Source: an uncultured bacterium (lineage in GTDB: Bacteria; Bacillota; Clostridia; Oscillospirales; Oscillospiraceae). From it: a DNA stretch of 64,000 nt. The stretch's first letter is position 1, and the number at the start of each line of letters is the position of its first letter. A model generated the notes under the pieces. The model was not told where the DNA came from. It did not search any database and worked only from the letters and a program-made list of their open reading frames with translations. The DNA is taken from NCBI GenBank assembly GCA_947176765.1, contig CAMWRX010000002.1:1-64000 (forward strand), in the 5' to 3' direction. The position numbers and the translations under genes are program-made. This document shows positions 6,899 through 24,243 of this stretch, piece by piece.

Positions 6899-7516
6899 AT
6901 GAAAAAGCACATTTTAATCGTCCAGGGCGGCGGCCGTCCCAAGGGCAACACCGCCCAGCTTATTTCCGCATTCACCCAAGGCGCTGAATCTGCGGGCCAC
7001 ACCGTGGAAACGGTCTCCCTTCTCAAAAACGAGGTGAAGGGCTGTCTGGGCTGCAACGCCTGCCGCTACGGAAAGCCCTGCGTCCAGAAGGACGCGTTCA
7101 ACGACCTCGTCCCCAAGATCAAGGCGGCGGACTGCATCGTGTTTGCCTCACCGCTGTATTTTTGGACCGTCTCCGCCCGGATCAAGGCGTTCATCGAGCG
7201 GTTCTACTGCATCGCAGGGGAAGACCCCGCGCCTCCGCTGGGCCGGTATGAAAAGTACCCGGTGAAAGACTGCGCCCTGCTCATGACAGCGGCGGATGAT
7301 TTCTTCTGGACGTTCCAGCAGGCACAGTCCTACTACCAGTTTGCCTTGGTGAATTACATCGGCTTCCATGACCAGGGAATGCTGCTGGCGGGCGGCTGCG
7401 GGGATACCAACGGCCCGCCCCAGATCGGCAAAACCGGGCATCTGGAACGGGCCTATGCCTTTGGGCAAGGGTTGTACTCTGCCGCGGCGGACGGGCAAAA
7501 CACACAAAAGGTCTGA
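6899..7516 (+). CDS. Flavodoxin-family NAD(P)H-dependent oxidoreductase
   Basis: GGGRPKGNTAQLISAF...CLGCNACRYGKPCVQKDAF...ASPLYFWTVSARIKAFIERF. Confidence 0.88.
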   Translation: MKKHILIVQGGGRPKGNTAQLISAFTQGAESAGHTVETVSLLKNEVKGCLGCNACRYGKPCVQKDAFNDLVPKIKAADCIVFASPLYFWTVSARIKAFIERFYCIAGEDPAPPLGRYEKYPVKDCALLMTAADDFFWTFQQAQSYYQFALVNYIGFHDQGMLLAGGCGDTNGPPQIGKTGHLERAYAFGQGLYSAAADGQNTQKV

Positions 7517-17532: not shown

Positions 17533-18522
17533 CTACTTCCAGGTGGTCCCGCCGTACGCGTAGCTGACAGGCAGGCACAGGAGAGATGGAGCCTGGAGGA
17601 GGTTCTTCTCCAAAATCATGCTGACGCACGTTTCGGCGATCTCCTCTACGGGCTGGACGATGGTGGAGCAGTACAGCTCCATGTCCCCAAAATGCCGCGA
17701 CCCGTCAAAGCCGATGATCTGCACATCTTCCGGCACGCGCAGGCCCATACCCTTCAGGGAATTGATGATTTGGTAGGCCAGCGAATCCGTGACGCAGAAA
17801 ATACCGTCGAAATCCAGCTTGCCGTCGTGCAGATGCTCCTGAAGGAATTCCTCAAAGGCGGAATAGGGCGTGCCGTCATCCACGATTTTCAGCGTGTAGG
17901 GGACGTCCAGCGCCTCGCAGGCGCTGATGAAACCGTCCTTGCGCTTGTTGGGCTCGTTGGTCAGTTTGGAGCCGATCCGAAGAAACGCCAGATTTTTGCA
18001 GCCATTCTCCACAAGCTTCTCGGCGGCAAGGCGGCCCCCGCCGTAGTTGTCGCTGGACACGCAGGAGATGAGGGCGCCGAAGTATCGGTCGATCGAGATC
18101 AGCGGTATGTTGGCGGGGATCTTCAAATTGGGATTGTAGGACAGGCAGATGATCCCATCCACCTTCTGCTGCTCGGCCAGTAAGACGACCTCCTGCTCCT
18201 GCTGGGGGTCGAAATCGGTGGCGTAGAAAAGCATCCGATACGACCGCATCGCCAGCGCCTTGTTGATGCAGTTGACCAGCCTGATGAAGAAGGGGTTGAC
18301 CAGGTTTGGCATGATCACCGCCACCAAGAAGGTCTTGTTGCTCCGAAGGCCCTTGGCGTAGCTGTTGACGCGGTAGTCCAGTTCTTTGATGGCCTTTTCC
18401 ACCCGCACGCGGTATTCCTCCCCCACCGGGAGCCCGTTTACCACCTTTGATACCGTGCCCAGCGCCACGCCCGCCTCGCGCGCAACGTCTTTCATGGTAG
18501 GGACTGGTTTTTGTTCTGACAT
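17533..18522 (-). CDS. LacI family transcriptional regulator
   Basis: MKDVAREAGVALGTVSKVVNGLPVGEEYRVRVEKAIKELDYRVNSYAKGL. Confidence 0.93.
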   Translation of the reverse strand: MSEQKPVPTMKDVAREAGVALGTVSKVVNGLPVGEEYRVRVEKAIKELDYRVNSYAKGLRSNKTFLVAVIMPNLVNPFFIRLVNCINKALAMRSYRMLFYATDFDPQQEQEVVLLAEQQKVDGIICLSYNPNLKIPANIPLISIDRYFGALISCVSSDNYGGGRLAAEKLVENGCKNLAFLRIGSKLTNEPNKRKDGFISACEALDVPYTLKIVDDGTPYSAFEEFLQEHLHDGKLDFDGIFCVTDSLAYQIINSLKGMGLRVPEDVQIIGFDGSRHFGDMELYCSTIVQPVEEIAETCVSMILEKNLLQAPSLLCLPVSYAYGGTTWK

Positions 18523-18859: not shown

Positions 18860-19813
18860 GTGAGTAACTCGACAAAAACAGCAAGGCGCACGGCGTCTGA
18901 AGGCGCAGTCAGGCTCCACAAGAAAACGCTCGGGACGCGTGTCGCCGAGAACTGGCAGTTGTATCTGCTGCTGGTGATCCCCGTCGTCATCACCATCATC
19001 TATAAGTACATCCCTATGTACGGCGTGCAGATCGCCTTCCGCAATTACAAGCCCGCTCAGGGTTTCTTCGGAAGCAAGTGGGTAGGCTTTGACTGGTTTG
19101 AGCGGTTCTTCACCGCCCCCACCTTCCGGCGGATGATCATCAACACCGTCAAGCTCAGTCTGTTCAGCCTGCTGTGGAGCTTCCCGGTGCCCATTATCCT
19201 GTCCCTGGCGATCAACCAGCTGCGGTTCAAGGGCTTCAGGAAGGTTGTCCAGACCATCCTGTACGCCCCGCACTTTATCTCCATCATGGTCGTCTGCGGT
19301 ATGATCCGCATCTTCCTGAGCCCTTACGGCGGCCTCATCAACCTGCTGCTCGGCCAGTCCATTGACTTCATGACCGTGCCCGGGGCGTTCCGCACGATTT
19401 ACATTGCCTCCGGCATCTGGCAGGACGCCGGCTGGGGCTGCATCATCTATCTGGCCACCCTGTCCGCGGTGGACCCCGGCCTCTATGAGGCGGCCAAGAT
19501 CGACGGCGCGTCCATGTTCCAGCGTATCCTCAACATCGACGTGCCCGAGCTGCTGCCCATGATTATCCTCCAGCTCATCATGGCTGCCAGCGGCATCATG
19601 AGCGTAGGCTTCGAGAAAGTCTTCCTGCTCCAGACCCAGCTCAACAAGGTCACCAGCGACGTCATCGCGGTGTACGTCTACGAACAAGGTATCGTTGACC
19701 ACGCATACAGCTATTCGACGGCAATCGGCCTCTTTAACACGGTCATCAACATCATCCTGCTGGTTATCGTGAACAACATCGCCAAGAAGGCCGCCGATGT
19801 CAGCTTCGTTTAA
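18860..19813 (+). CDS. Sugar ABC transporter permease (LplB-like)
   Basis: VIPVVITIIYKYIPMYGVQIAFRNY...; EAAKIDGASMFQRILNIDVPELLPMI. Confidence 0.9.
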   Translation: MSNSTKTARRTASEGAVRLHKKTLGTRVAENWQLYLLLVIPVVITIIYKYIPMYGVQIAFRNYKPAQGFFGSKWVGFDWFERFFTAPTFRRMIINTVKLSLFSLLWSFPVPIILSLAINQLRFKGFRKVVQTILYAPHFISIMVVCGMIRIFLSPYGGLINLLLGQSIDFMTVPGAFRTIYIASGIWQDAGWGCIIYLATLSAVDPGLYEAAKIDGASMFQRILNIDVPELLPMIILQLIMAASGIMSVGFEKVFLLQTQLNKVTSDVIAVYVYEQGIVDHAYSYSTAIGLFNTVINIILLVIVNNIAKKAADVSFV

Positions 19814-19826
19814 GGAGGTGCGGGGA

Positions 19827-20714
19827 ATGAAAAGTAAAACCGGTACCGGCCTGTCTGACAAGGCCAGCGACATTATCCTGGTGGTTTTGTGTACGGTGAT
19901 CATGCTGGTCATCGCCTATCCCCTGTACTACGTCATCGTCGCCTCTGTGTCCGACCCCTACGACGTGTACGCCGGCAAGACCTTCCTGCTGCCCAGCAAG
20001 TTCACGCTGGAGGGCTACAGCGCCGTCTTTGCCAACTCCAACCTGTTCAACGGCTTTATCAACTCCGTGAAATACACCATTGTGGGCACCCTCTACTCGG
20101 TGGTCACCGTGTACATCACCGCCTATCCCCTCAGCCAGAAGAACCTGCCCGGCCGTAAGTGGATCAGCATCTTCTTCGTCATCACCATGTACTTCGGCGG
20201 CGGCCTGATCCCCACCTACCTGGTGGTCCGGGACACCGGCCTGCTGAACAATATGTGGGCGCTGTTTCTTCCCGGCGGCGTGGGCATGGGCAACGTCATC
20301 ATCGTGCGCAACTTCTTTGAGAACAACGTACCCAAGGAGCTCACCGAGGCGGCGGAGATTGACGGCGCCAGCAAGATGACCGTTTTCCTGCGGGTGGTGG
20401 TCCCCCTGAGCCGCTCCATCATGGCCGTGATCGTGGTGTTCTCCATGGTGGCCTTCTGGAACGACTGGTTCACCGCCCTGATCTACCTGCAGAAGGATCA
20501 GTACCCCTTCCCGCTGGTGCTGCGCGGCATCCTGATCACCACCGAGGCCATGAGCAGCATGACCGACGGCATGGGTTATGCCGAGGCAAACCGTATGACC
20601 GAGCTGGTCAAGTTCGCCTCCATGATCGTGGCGGCCGCCCCCATGCTGGCCATCTACCCCTTCGTCCAGAAGTACTTCGAGCAGGGTTTCATGACCGGCG
20701 CGGTCAAGGGGTGA
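19827..20714 (+). CDS. Carbohydrate ABC transporter permease (YtcP-like)
   Basis: YPLYYVIVASVSDP...; LTEAAEIDGASKMTVFLRVVVPLS. Confidence 0.9.
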   Translation: MKSKTGTGLSDKASDIILVVLCTVIMLVIAYPLYYVIVASVSDPYDVYAGKTFLLPSKFTLEGYSAVFANSNLFNGFINSVKYTIVGTLYSVVTVYITAYPLSQKNLPGRKWISIFFVITMYFGGGLIPTYLVVRDTGLLNNMWALFLPGGVGMGNVIIVRNFFENNVPKELTEAAEIDGASKMTVFLRVVVPLSRSIMAVIVVFSMVAFWNDWFTALIYLQKDQYPFPLVLRGILITTEAMSSMTDGMGYAEANRMTELVKFASMIVAAAPMLAIYPFVQKYFEQGFMTGAVKG

Positions 20715-20835
20715 GGCGGCGCAAGCGCCGCCGGGCCGGTCGTTGGGCCGCAAAGCGGCCCAATGACGGCCCCAGGGCAGCGCACCCGCGCTGCCGGACC
20801 AGTCGTTGGGCCACAGAGTGGCCCAATGACGGTCC
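20715..20835 (+). repeat. Duplicated two-hairpin intercistronic module (A1-B1-A2-B2)
   Basis: A1 20715-20732, B1 20733-20772, A2 20776-20795, B2 20796-20835; B1 and B2 share gtcgttgggcc...ggcccaatgacgg with paired substitutions. Confidence 0.85.
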
Positions 20836-20889
20836 CTGTCTGAAAATCATCAAAGATTTTAAATTGTTATAAAAGGAGCGTCGAACCAT

Positions 20890-22539
20890 ATGAAAATGAA
20901 CGTAAAGCGGATCATGGCCTCCGCCTTGGCGGCGGCCATGGCCCTGAGCCTTGCTGCCTGCAGCAAGGGCGCCGAGAAGCGCGGCGACGAGAACCAGAAC
21001 GAGTTCCTCATCGTGGGCGGTATGTCCACCCTGAGCAGCGGCAACGACAGCAACCCCGTCCTGATGGAGCTGGCAGAGAACGCCGGTGTTGAGATCGAGT
21101 GGGACCTCATGAGCGACTCCCTGGGCGAAAAGGTGGGCGTGCTCATCGGCGGCAACCAACTGCCCGATGCCTTCATCGCCGTGAACTTCAGTGCCACCGA
21201 TATTAATGATTACGGCGAGGACGGCACCTTTATCGACCTGACCGACTACATCACCCCCGAGATTATGCCCAACCTGTCCGCCATTCTGGAGGAGCATCCC
21301 GAGATTAAGTCCGCCATCACCCAGGCCGACGGCAAGATTTACGGCCTGCCCTCCGCCGAGATGATGGGCACTGCTGCCGTGGGTGCCAGCGATGACATGA
21401 GCATCTATTCCATCCCCGAGTTCTCCATGATCAACAAGACCTGGCTGGATGAGCTGGGCCTGGACATCCCCACCAACCTGACCGAGCTCCACGACGCCCT
21501 GGTCGCCTTCAAGGACAATGATATGGCCACCCGCAACGGCAACGCTGCCGGTTCCACCATTCCCATGTCCACTGGCTATGACCAGTGGTGCTGGGGCCAG
21601 GAGATCTTCTACGCCGGCTTCGGTTTCACCAACTTTACCAGCGACGTCTGCGCCGACCTGGTGGCCAACCCCGATGGCTCCGTGGAGTTCGTCAGCGCCA
21701 CCGACAAGTACCGCGACGCGGTCTCCTACTTCCACGACTGGTACGCCGAGGGCCTGATGGATCTGGAGATGTTCTCCCAGAGCACCAGCCAGCTCATCGC
21801 CAAGGTGTCCCAGGGCCGCGTGGGTGTGACCACTTGGTGGTACATTGAGGAGATTGCCGGCGAGCATTCCGACGATTTTGTATTCCTGCCCCCGATGTAC
21901 GGCCCCGAGGGCACCGAGTATGCCAACACCCGCAACGTCACTGTCCGCGCCGGTACGCCCATCTCTTCCGGCAACCTGAACATCACCAGCGCCTGCGGCA
22001 ACCCCGAGCTGCTGTGCAAGTACTTCGACCAGTGGTATGATCCCGAGATCGTCATGCAGCTCCAGTACGCCCCCATCGGCATCTACTTCTCTGAGAAGGA
22101 TGCCAACGGTGTGTGGCAGGTCATCTCCGAGGATGCCGCCCAGGCTCAGTTTGGCAAGAGCTCCGGCGAGCTGAAGGGCCAGTATGAGGTCTACGGCCCC
22201 CGCCTGATCCTGCCTGAGTACTACAACAGCGTGTTCTATATGGAGGACCGTGCCACCGAGCGTCTGGAGAACCTGATGAACGAGTGGATGCCCTATGTGG
22301 ACAACACCGTGTATTACCCCGCCGACGTCACCTTCACCAACGATGAGCTGGAGACCATCAGCCGCTATAAGGCCGACTTTGTCAGCCAGGTCGCGGAGTA
22401 TGAGGGCACTTGGCTGAAGAACGGCGGCCCCACCGACGACGAGTGGAACGCCTACCTTCAGATGCTGGAGGACAGCTGCGGCATGAGCCGTCTGCTGGAT
22501 GTGTATCAGGCGGCCTACGACCGCTACATGGGCAAGTAA
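20890..22539 (+). CDS. Extracellular solute-binding lipoprotein of the sugar ABC transporter
   Basis: Lipobox LSLAACSK; long SBP with LplA/LipO-like style, directly after two permeases. Confidence 0.88.
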   Translation: MKMNVKRIMASALAAAMALSLAACSKGAEKRGDENQNEFLIVGGMSTLSSGNDSNPVLMELAENAGVEIEWDLMSDSLGEKVGVLIGGNQLPDAFIAVNFSATDINDYGEDGTFIDLTDYITPEIMPNLSAILEEHPEIKSAITQADGKIYGLPSAEMMGTAAVGASDDMSIYSIPEFSMINKTWLDELGLDIPTNLTELHDALVAFKDNDMATRNGNAAGSTIPMSTGYDQWCWGQEIFYAGFGFTNFTSDVCADLVANPDGSVEFVSATDKYRDAVSYFHDWYAEGLMDLEMFSQSTSQLIAKVSQGRVGVTTWWYIEEIAGEHSDDFVFLPPMYGPEGTEYANTRNVTVRAGTPISSGNLNITSACGNPELLCKYFDQWYDPEIVMQLQYAPIGIYFSEKDANGVWQVISEDAAQAQFGKSSGELKGQYEVYGPRLILPEYYNSVFYMEDRATERLENLMNEWMPYVDNTVYYPADVTFTNDELETISRYKADFVSQVAEYEGTWLKNGGPTDDEWNAYLQMLEDSCGMSRLLDVYQAAYDRYMGK

Positions 22540-22752: not shown

Positions 22753-24243
22753 ATGATCAGTGAAACCTTGCAGAAAGCCCGGGAATTTGAATCCCATTAT
22801 GGTTCTTTCATCCCGGCAGACCAGCGTCCCGCTTTCCATGTTACCCCTACCATCGGTTGGATGAACGACCCAAACGGCTTCTCCCCCTATAAAGGGGAGT
22901 ACCATCTGTTCTACCAGTATCATCCCTACTCCAACGAGTGGGGGCCCATGCATTGGGGACATCTGAAAACAAAGGATTTCATCGCCTGGGAGCGGCTGCC
23001 CGTGGCTATAGCCCCGGACGAGTCCTACGATGCCTCCGGCTGTTTCTCCGGCAGCGCCATTGAGCTGCCCGATGGGCGTCAGCTGTTGCTGTACACCGGC
23101 GTGCAGCGGCATCATAATAAAGAGGGCTTTATCCAGGACATCCAGGCCCAGTGCGTGGCCATCGGGGACGGGGTAGACTATGAGAAATGTGGAGAGAACC
23201 CGGTGCTGGGGGCAGCGGATTTACCGGAAGGCGGCAGCTTCATCGACTTCCGGGACCCCAAGATCTGGCAGGAGGCGGACGGAACCTACTATGCTGTCAT
23301 CGGAAACCGCACGGAGGACACCAGCGGCGCGATCCTGCTGTACTGCAGCACCGACGGGTTGAAGTGGGAGCTTGCCCGCACTCTGGACCGTTGCAACAAC
23401 CAGTATGGGAAGATGTGGGAGTGCCCGGATTTCTTCGTCCTGGACGGTGTACACGTCCTGCTTACCAGCCCCCAGGAGATGAGCCCCATCGGCTTGGAAT
23501 TCCATGCGGGCAACGGCACTGTGTGCCTCATCGGGGACTACGATCCCGCTGGGAAAGGCTTTGTTCGGCGGTATGCGCAGGCTATTGACTACGGTCTGGA
23601 CTTCTACGCGCCTCAGACCCTGCTGACTCCTGATGGGCGGCGGGTAATGATCGCCTGGATGCAGAACTGGAGTACTGTGGGGGCAAAGCCTTACAACTGC
23701 CGCTGGTTTGGCCAGATGACCCTGCCCCGTGAGCTGTCGGTGAAGAATGGGCGGCTTTACCAGAACCCGGTGCGGGAGTTCGAGGGCTACCGGGAGCGCT
23801 GTGTCATACACAACAACATTCCTGTATGCAGTGAGGTGAATCTGCCCGGTATCCAGGGCCGGATGCTGGACATGACTGTGACGGTCCGGCCCACCGGCAG
23901 CGAGCCCTACCGCTGGTTCCGCGTCCGGGTGGCAAAGGACGGCGAGCATGAGACCATCATCCGCTACCGTCCGGATCAGGGCACCATCAAGATTGATCGT
24001 ACCCGCAGCGGCTTGCCCCACGACATCGTCCATACCCGCAGCTTCCTGGTGTCCTATCGGGAGGGCGAAATCAAGCTGCGCATTATCCTGGACCGGTTCA
24101 GCCTGGAGGTATTCGTCAACGACGGCGAGCAGGCCGCCAGCACGGTCATTTACACCCGCCAGGAGGCGGATGCCATCACCTTTGAGGCCGGCGGGGCCGC
24201 GCTGATGGATGTGGAAAAGTATGATATTGTTCTAGATCAGTGA
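22753..24243 (+). CDS. GH32 beta-fructofuranosidase / sucrose-6-phosphate hydrolase-like, cytoplasmic
   Basis: GWMNDPNGFSPYKGEYHLFYQYHP, FRDPKIW, WECPDFF; no signal peptide. Confidence 0.93.
   Translation: MISETLQKAREFESHYGSFIPADQRPAFHVTPTIGWMNDPNGFSPYKGEYHLFYQYHPYSNEWGPMHWGHLKTKDFIAWERLPVAIAPDESYDASGCFSGSAIELPDGRQLLLYTGVQRHHNKEGFIQDIQAQCVAIGDGVDYEKCGENPVLGAADLPEGGSFIDFRDPKIWQEADGTYYAVIGNRTEDTSGAILLYCSTDGLKWELARTLDRCNNQYGKMWECPDFFVLDGVHVLLTSPQEMSPIGLEFHAGNGTVCLIGDYDPAGKGFVRRYAQAIDYGLDFYAPQTLLTPDGRRVMIAWMQNWSTVGAKPYNCRWFGQMTLPRELSVKNGRLYQNPVREFEGYRERCVIHNNIPVCSEVNLPGIQGRMLDMTVTVRPTGSEPYRWFRVRVAKDGEHETIIRYRPDQGTIKIDRTRSGLPHDIVHTRSFLVSYREGEIKLRIILDRFSLEVFVNDGEQAASTVIYTRQEADAITFEAGGAALMDVEKYDIVLDQ

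Follow-up and report, generated by a model that had tools for sequence, protein, structure and literature searches.

The double-hairpin module lies in the window, the whole 64,000-nucleotide stretch of DNA that was analysed, in the gap between the genes for an ABC transporter permease and a solute-binding protein (Table 1). The TGA codon of the permease gene immediately precedes the first base of hairpin A1. From the GH32 enzyme, the LacI-type regulator and the permeases in the context, this is probably a fructan/sucrose utilisation locus.

Table 1 Features of the host locus and of the units on viral contigs.
Feature	Position	Strand	Remarks
LacI-type regulator	17533-18522	-	context
Other permease	18860-19813	+	context
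ABC transporter permease (upstream host gene)	19797..20714	+	BPD_transp_1, PF00528
Hairpin A, unit 1 (GGCGGCGCAAGCGCCGCC)	20715..20732	+	R1 match 20715-20773, 70.1 bits
Hairpin B, unit 1	20733..20772	+	outer GGGCC/GGCCC, unpaired purine, GTCGTT/AATGAC core with G·U wobble, variable inner stem
Linker CAG between units, 3 nt	20773..20775	+	
Hairpin A, unit 2 (GGCAGCGCACCCGCGCTGCC)	20776..20795	+	R1 match 20776-20836, 61.4 bits
Hairpin B, unit 2	20796..20835	+	compensated pairs set B2 apart from B1
Shine-Dalgarno AGGAG of the binding-protein gene	20874-20878		
549-aa lipoprotein-like solute-binding protein (downstream host gene)	20890..22539	+	role from operon context; no Pfam match
GH32 enzyme	22753..24243	+	operon context
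Phage-contig unit	L304:5039-5092		inside ParB-like gene, antisense, in frame
Phage-contig units	L305:5298-5357 and 7283-7337		
Phage-contig unit	L306:5186-5239		

All four hairpins of the original prediction (A1, B1, A2 and B2) were confirmed at their sites within 20715-20835, as were the compensatory differences it described between B1 and B2, which are changes from G-C to A-T at the third pair and at the loop-closing pair of hairpin B. A further compensatory change from G-C to A-T, at the fourth pair of hairpin A, is not listed in that prediction, and three pairs are thus changed on both sides between unit 1 and unit 2. The unpaired purine of hairpin B is G in B1 and A in B2, and a purine is conserved at this position family-wide, as is the internal G·U pair in the B core (5′ TCGTT / 3′ AATGA). 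The folding energy of the module sense strand is −103.7 kcal/mol versus −60.3 ± 3.7 kcal/mol for 200 shuffles (z = −11.7), and the core pattern occurs twice in the 64 kb and in none of 100 shuffles. An Rfam scan of the window gave no covariance-model match at gathering score. The true repeat unit is A plus B, with a length of about 55–61 nt, and the module therefore consists of two head-to-tail copies of one repeat.

A DNA search revealed more copies in the own genome and copies in 9 of the 60 genomes searched. A covariance model, designated R1, was built after aligning 22 copies with MAFFT. In this alignment, hairpin A (GGCNGC..GCNGCC) is followed without a spacer by hairpin B, which is composed of GGNNC, an unpaired purine, GTCGTT, a variable inner stem, AATGAC and GNNCC. 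The core motif is invariant in the 22 copies because they were picked by this motif, and R1 removes most of that bias. The genome-wide covariance-model search called for by the original prediction was conducted with R1 and found 32 copies in the own genome and 4–26 copies each in 6 of 41 congeners; carriers within the genus, all of them draft genomes, hence number 7 of 42 with the own genome included (4–32 copies each). The remaining 35 genomes gave no copy with a sensitive R1 setting, in a run that held no positive control inside, and the same model detects all carriers in the genus search. Among 394 genomes sampled from the order under stricter filters, the own genome was the only match, and none was found outside the genus. 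The repeat is restricted to one sublineage within a genus of gut Clostridia.

The fold is preserved by covariation throughout the family, as the original prediction had proposed from the two window units. In the 22 MAFFT-aligned copies, 95.7% of the cells are paired and 55 cells are changed on both sides of the pair versus 13 in shuffles. The corresponding values for 120 distinct rows aligned with the covariance model, an alignment that is fitted to the structure, are 97.0% and 382 versus 102. Both-side changes are present at 20 pairs in these rows, and the core G·U pair is kept in 111 of the 120. In 140 of 145 copies, the sense strand folds more stably than its complement. The element thus has polarity, given by the conserved G·U wobble, as expected if it is read as single-stranded DNA or RNA.

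The original prediction likened the module to intercistronic stabilisers of the malE-malF type, which raise the dosage of the binding protein. In the mal operon of Escherichia coli, malE is upstream of the REP, and the REP protects the upstream message. The window module is similar in that its hairpins lie within the gap of a sugar ABC operon, but the binding-protein gene is downstream of them. The protected gene would thus differ and the dosage logic does not carry over; a comparable effect on the 3′ side would concern the permease. A dedicated stabiliser setting the ratio of binding protein to permease would agree with the very stable hairpins in the gap and their exact placement after the permease stop, as well as with the unrelated hairpins that a few relatives have in the same gap. 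It would also agree with other copies located directly behind ABC permease stop codons in G033, G005 and G016 (L160/L226, L256); in G016, the next gene is lipoprotein-like and resembles a binding protein. Because of this repeated placement, a local function is retained as a minor component. However, the unit is missing at the orthologous position from all 80 loci that have a relative of the binding protein, and the gap between the permease and binding-protein genes is 64 nt or less in 61 of 78 loci, which are those of the 80 with a permease end placeable directly upstream. The window insert is therefore lineage-specific and outside the conserved operon. The gaps listed for the related loci are unrelated in sequence. 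Together with the reversed gene order and the copies of this repeat that lie within coding genes, sense as well as antisense (see below), the absence from the 80 loci speaks against the proposed dosage effect, and we consider a dedicated stabiliser of this type unlikely.

An unrelated multi-hairpin set of about 200–225 nt was observed in the same operon gap of the MAG relatives labelled Lapin (L063, L065, L066, and L068), and it is probably another repeat family.

Nearly all copies of the seven carriers were retrieved, and the genomic sites of 146 of them were classed with ARAGORN and our own codon-usage gene finder; the counts include orthologous copies, and single-linkage clustering, which over-merges, gave 67 clusters. 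Fourteen copies start no more than 3 nt from a tRNA 3′ end (CCA), all on the same strand as the tRNA (Leu, Ser, Gly, Arg, Tyr, and Ala), where about 0.01 would be expected by chance assuming about 45 tRNA genes per genome, and 11 of the 14 run into a T-tract. Eight of the 146 start directly after a same-strand stop codon. Predicted coding genes contain 38 copies, of which 15 are sense and 23 antisense. Copies arranged in tandem, head to tail, also occur. At the 5′ end of the tmRNA gene (recognised by eye), an antisense unit is present at the same base in five carriers, with stems that differ and are always paired; the tmRNA 5′ ends of G022 and G003 have no unit. Behind tRNA-Tyr, the own genome has a unit plus TTTTGTTTT, and the non-carriers have ordinary terminators that are unrelated to one another.

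This distribution bears on the possibility that the repeats are a portable intrinsic terminator family for tRNA and protein genes, of which the window copy would be a decayed or attenuating member. Six or more T within the eight downstream bases were found for 24 of the 146 copies, and 11 of these immediately follow tRNAs, at places that hold ordinary terminators in the non-carriers. Most copies, in contrast, are without a T-tract and 38 are inside coding genes, which makes a terminator family improbable as the general explanation. At the window copy, at most three T are present in the eight bases downstream, short of the U-tract of an intrinsic terminator, so efficient termination is unlikely there.

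Many of the T-tract copies (L177:3984-4038, L180:2961-3048, L230, L234, L249, and L264) have longer flanks in common, with GGGTACCA upstream after another terminator and TTTTGTTTTCCC..AGAAAAGCATTTTTGCCACA downstream, which suggests that they belong to a composite repeat of greater length in the vicinity of tRNA clusters. Decayed B-hairpin fragments at L177:3272-3390, behind the tRNA-Arg copy, suggest an old array.

Insertions that keep the reading frame were found in genes for AddA (L142, L194, and L251), AddB (L170), homocysteine methyltransferase, TrmD-GNAT, SWIM and DUF5682 proteins. The host proteins are real Pfam families that stay open through the insert, and AddB was named from its sequence without a Pfam run. 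In three species, units lie in the homocysteine methyltransferase gene, each time at a different position (L122, L179, and L238). Orthologous sites were sought by flank searches in 12 congeners. The homocysteine methyltransferase site is without the unit in G005 and G016, and G027 retains hairpin A only. The latter site (L298, G027:C34), which is orthologous to L122, lacks B and suggests that the two hairpins may be gained and lost independently. Empty sites were also found for AddA (G005, G027, G016, G030, and G022), the DUF5682 protein (G033 and G005), the SWIM protein (G027) and the TrmD-GNAT fusion (G033). No clean target-site duplication was seen at the orthologous sites compared, where the insertion boundaries are blurred because the empty sites lie in fast-evolving linkers. 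Full units are also carried by three IMG/VR viral contigs (Table 1), whose phage proteins (terminase, portal, and ParB-like) were named by reading the sequences.

About a dozen units are located in their entirety inside the terminal loop of hairpin B of another unit (L136, L142, L153, L166, L177, L220, L222, L225, L253, and L260, and in reversed orientation L176 and L140). For 11 copies, the flanks pair with each other over at least 8 bases; 200 re-pairings gave 2.9 such copies on average and 8 at most. A general preference for any hairpin loop was rejected since the flanks are rarely complementary outside the nested copies. Left-over 3′ halves at L117, L179, and L223 match the remnant expected from recombination of the outer with the inner 5′ half, and L223 and L235 represent one site with and without this type of loss.

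Among the enzymes considered as mobilisers, the RAYT-type Y1, IS110 and reverse-transcriptase families, none is common to all seven carriers. IS110 is absent from five of them and the reverse transcriptase (RVT_1) from two, absences that are weakened by the incomplete assemblies. A larger autonomous partner with the repeat as its ends was also rejected, as no gene-sized insert is present in any B loop of the fetched loci; matched B arms are at most 77 nt apart, and the single exception, in L177, is an 816-nt chance pairing across separate copies. A RAYT (Y1_Tnp, PF01797) was rejected because it is absent from six of the seven carriers, and the single Y1_Tnp match of the own genome (L114, G000:C90:5660-6013) looks degenerate, with no clear HUH motif, has flanks without the repeat, and adjoins what reads as a tRNA 3′ end. 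These results largely refute a REPIN population mobilised by a RAYT (IS200-like Y1 transposase), and we regard it as very improbable: the REP-like placement and the imperfect palindrome with polarity would fit it, but no RAYT gene flanked by the repeat was found and the units are head-to-tail pairs of hairpins (A plus B), not inverted REP doublets. The two units lying side by side might suggest that an ordinary hairpin was duplicated locally in tandem and pairs by chance, but this is refuted by the fold (z = −11.7) and by the covarying dispersed family, which leaves the reading a negligible probability.

Copies that lie within coding genes in either orientation, follow tRNAs or occupy the loops of their own kind fit a mobile repeat. 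The window module is thus very probably a tandem pair of short mobile elements of about 55 nt, non-autonomous and built of two hairpins, that are of the REP/RPE kind, belong to one Clostridia sublineage and are also carried by phages. We infer that the folded strand, either single-stranded DNA or RNA copied back, would be recognised by a trans-acting enzyme that inserts the new copy and has B loops among its preferred sites. Tandem arrays and trimmed nested copies may then arise as direct repeats recombine. Landing places would persist only where they are tolerated, namely at gene ends, protein linkers and tRNA ends, and at the last of these, hairpin B plus a T-tract could take over as the terminator. 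Any local effect of the window copy is most likely incidental; it may protect the permease message against exonucleases at its 3′ end, slow the polymerase, or shield the 5′ end of the binding-protein message. The near-perfect placement after CCA and stop codons could reflect a selected function there and not tolerance only. A bolder proposal, which we put forward tentatively and consider somewhat doubtful, is a previously undescribed class of mobile element: two-hairpin and polarity-bearing, targeting the loops of its own kind and the ends of RNA genes (tRNA CCA and tmRNA 5′ end), spread by an enzyme as well as by phages, and taken up repeatedly as a tRNA terminator.

Most of the catalogued REP-like families come from Proteobacteria, Cyanobacteria and a few other phyla. 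The clostridial family makes the spread of transposase-less palindromic repeats testable through the empty sites of sister species, self-nesting, AddAB insertions, carriage by phages and copies recruited behind tRNA genes. It also gives a caution that an isolated covarying hairpin in an operon need not be a dedicated regulatory RNA.

Known REPs are short imperfect palindromes in tens of copies that sit just after genes and inside repair genes (recBCD and UvrD-type), and the CGTC class has no dedicated transposase (PMC3733652). The present family resembles CGTC- and GTAG-tagged REPs in its short imperfect palindromes, copy number in the tens, placement at gene 3′ ends and intragenic copies, including those in repair genes (PMC3733652), and, like the CGTC class, no dedicated transposase was found for it. 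The reverse strand of hairpin B in this family carries CGTCATT, which resembles the CGTC head of REPs. However, REPs are single hairpins of 20–40 bp with an unpaired tetranucleotide tag and are mostly arranged as inverted dimers (PMC3733652), whereas the present unit is a 55-nt two-hairpin element arranged head to tail. In place of the unpaired CGTC tag, 8–9 bp stem, 4–5 nt loop and CCA-like tail of CGTC-REPs, the reverse-strand CGTC is paired within a 16-pair stem and there is no CCA tail. The REP-like character noted in the original prediction is supported. The words Firmicutes and Clostridia are absent from the main text of the REP survey (PMC3733652), a literature search on REP/RAYT in Firmicutes found no paper, and one on palindromic repeats with Faecalibacterium gave nothing relevant.

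WPE-like inserts of Wolbachia lie in frame in addA and addB, according to the cited part of their description (PMC4224334). In-frame palindromes within protein genes, with AddA and AddB also hit, are thus shared with the palindromic elements of Rickettsia and Wolbachia (RPE/WPE) as far as the cited parts describe them (PMC4224334, PMC3733652). As in RPEs, the coding genes with insertions have orthologues without the insert, a likeness at the level of description. The two-hairpin unit, loop nesting and placement at tRNA ends are not described for RPE/WPE in the cited parts, and the hosts are unrelated (PMC4224334, PMC3733652). Mitochondrial double-hairpin or repetitive hairpin-forming elements are tandem hairpin pairs with complementary substitutions and are potentially mobile; they likewise insert in genes and stay in the transcript, but they are organellar, those of keratose sponges are AT-rich, and there is no known relation (PMC2800124). 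Pneumococcal BOX, RUP and SPRITE are modular folded repeats that insert into one another (PMC3049150). They resemble the present family in their Firmicutes hosts, modularity, self-insertion and intergenic operon effects, and BOX and RUP differ, in a comparison by description only, by their terminal inverted repeats and target duplications (PMC3049150). The family works like REP, RPE/WPE, mitochondrial and pneumococcal repeats but fails the REPIN and CGTC-REP structures, and is best read as a new REP/RPE-like family of non-autonomous mobile palindromes in Clostridia.
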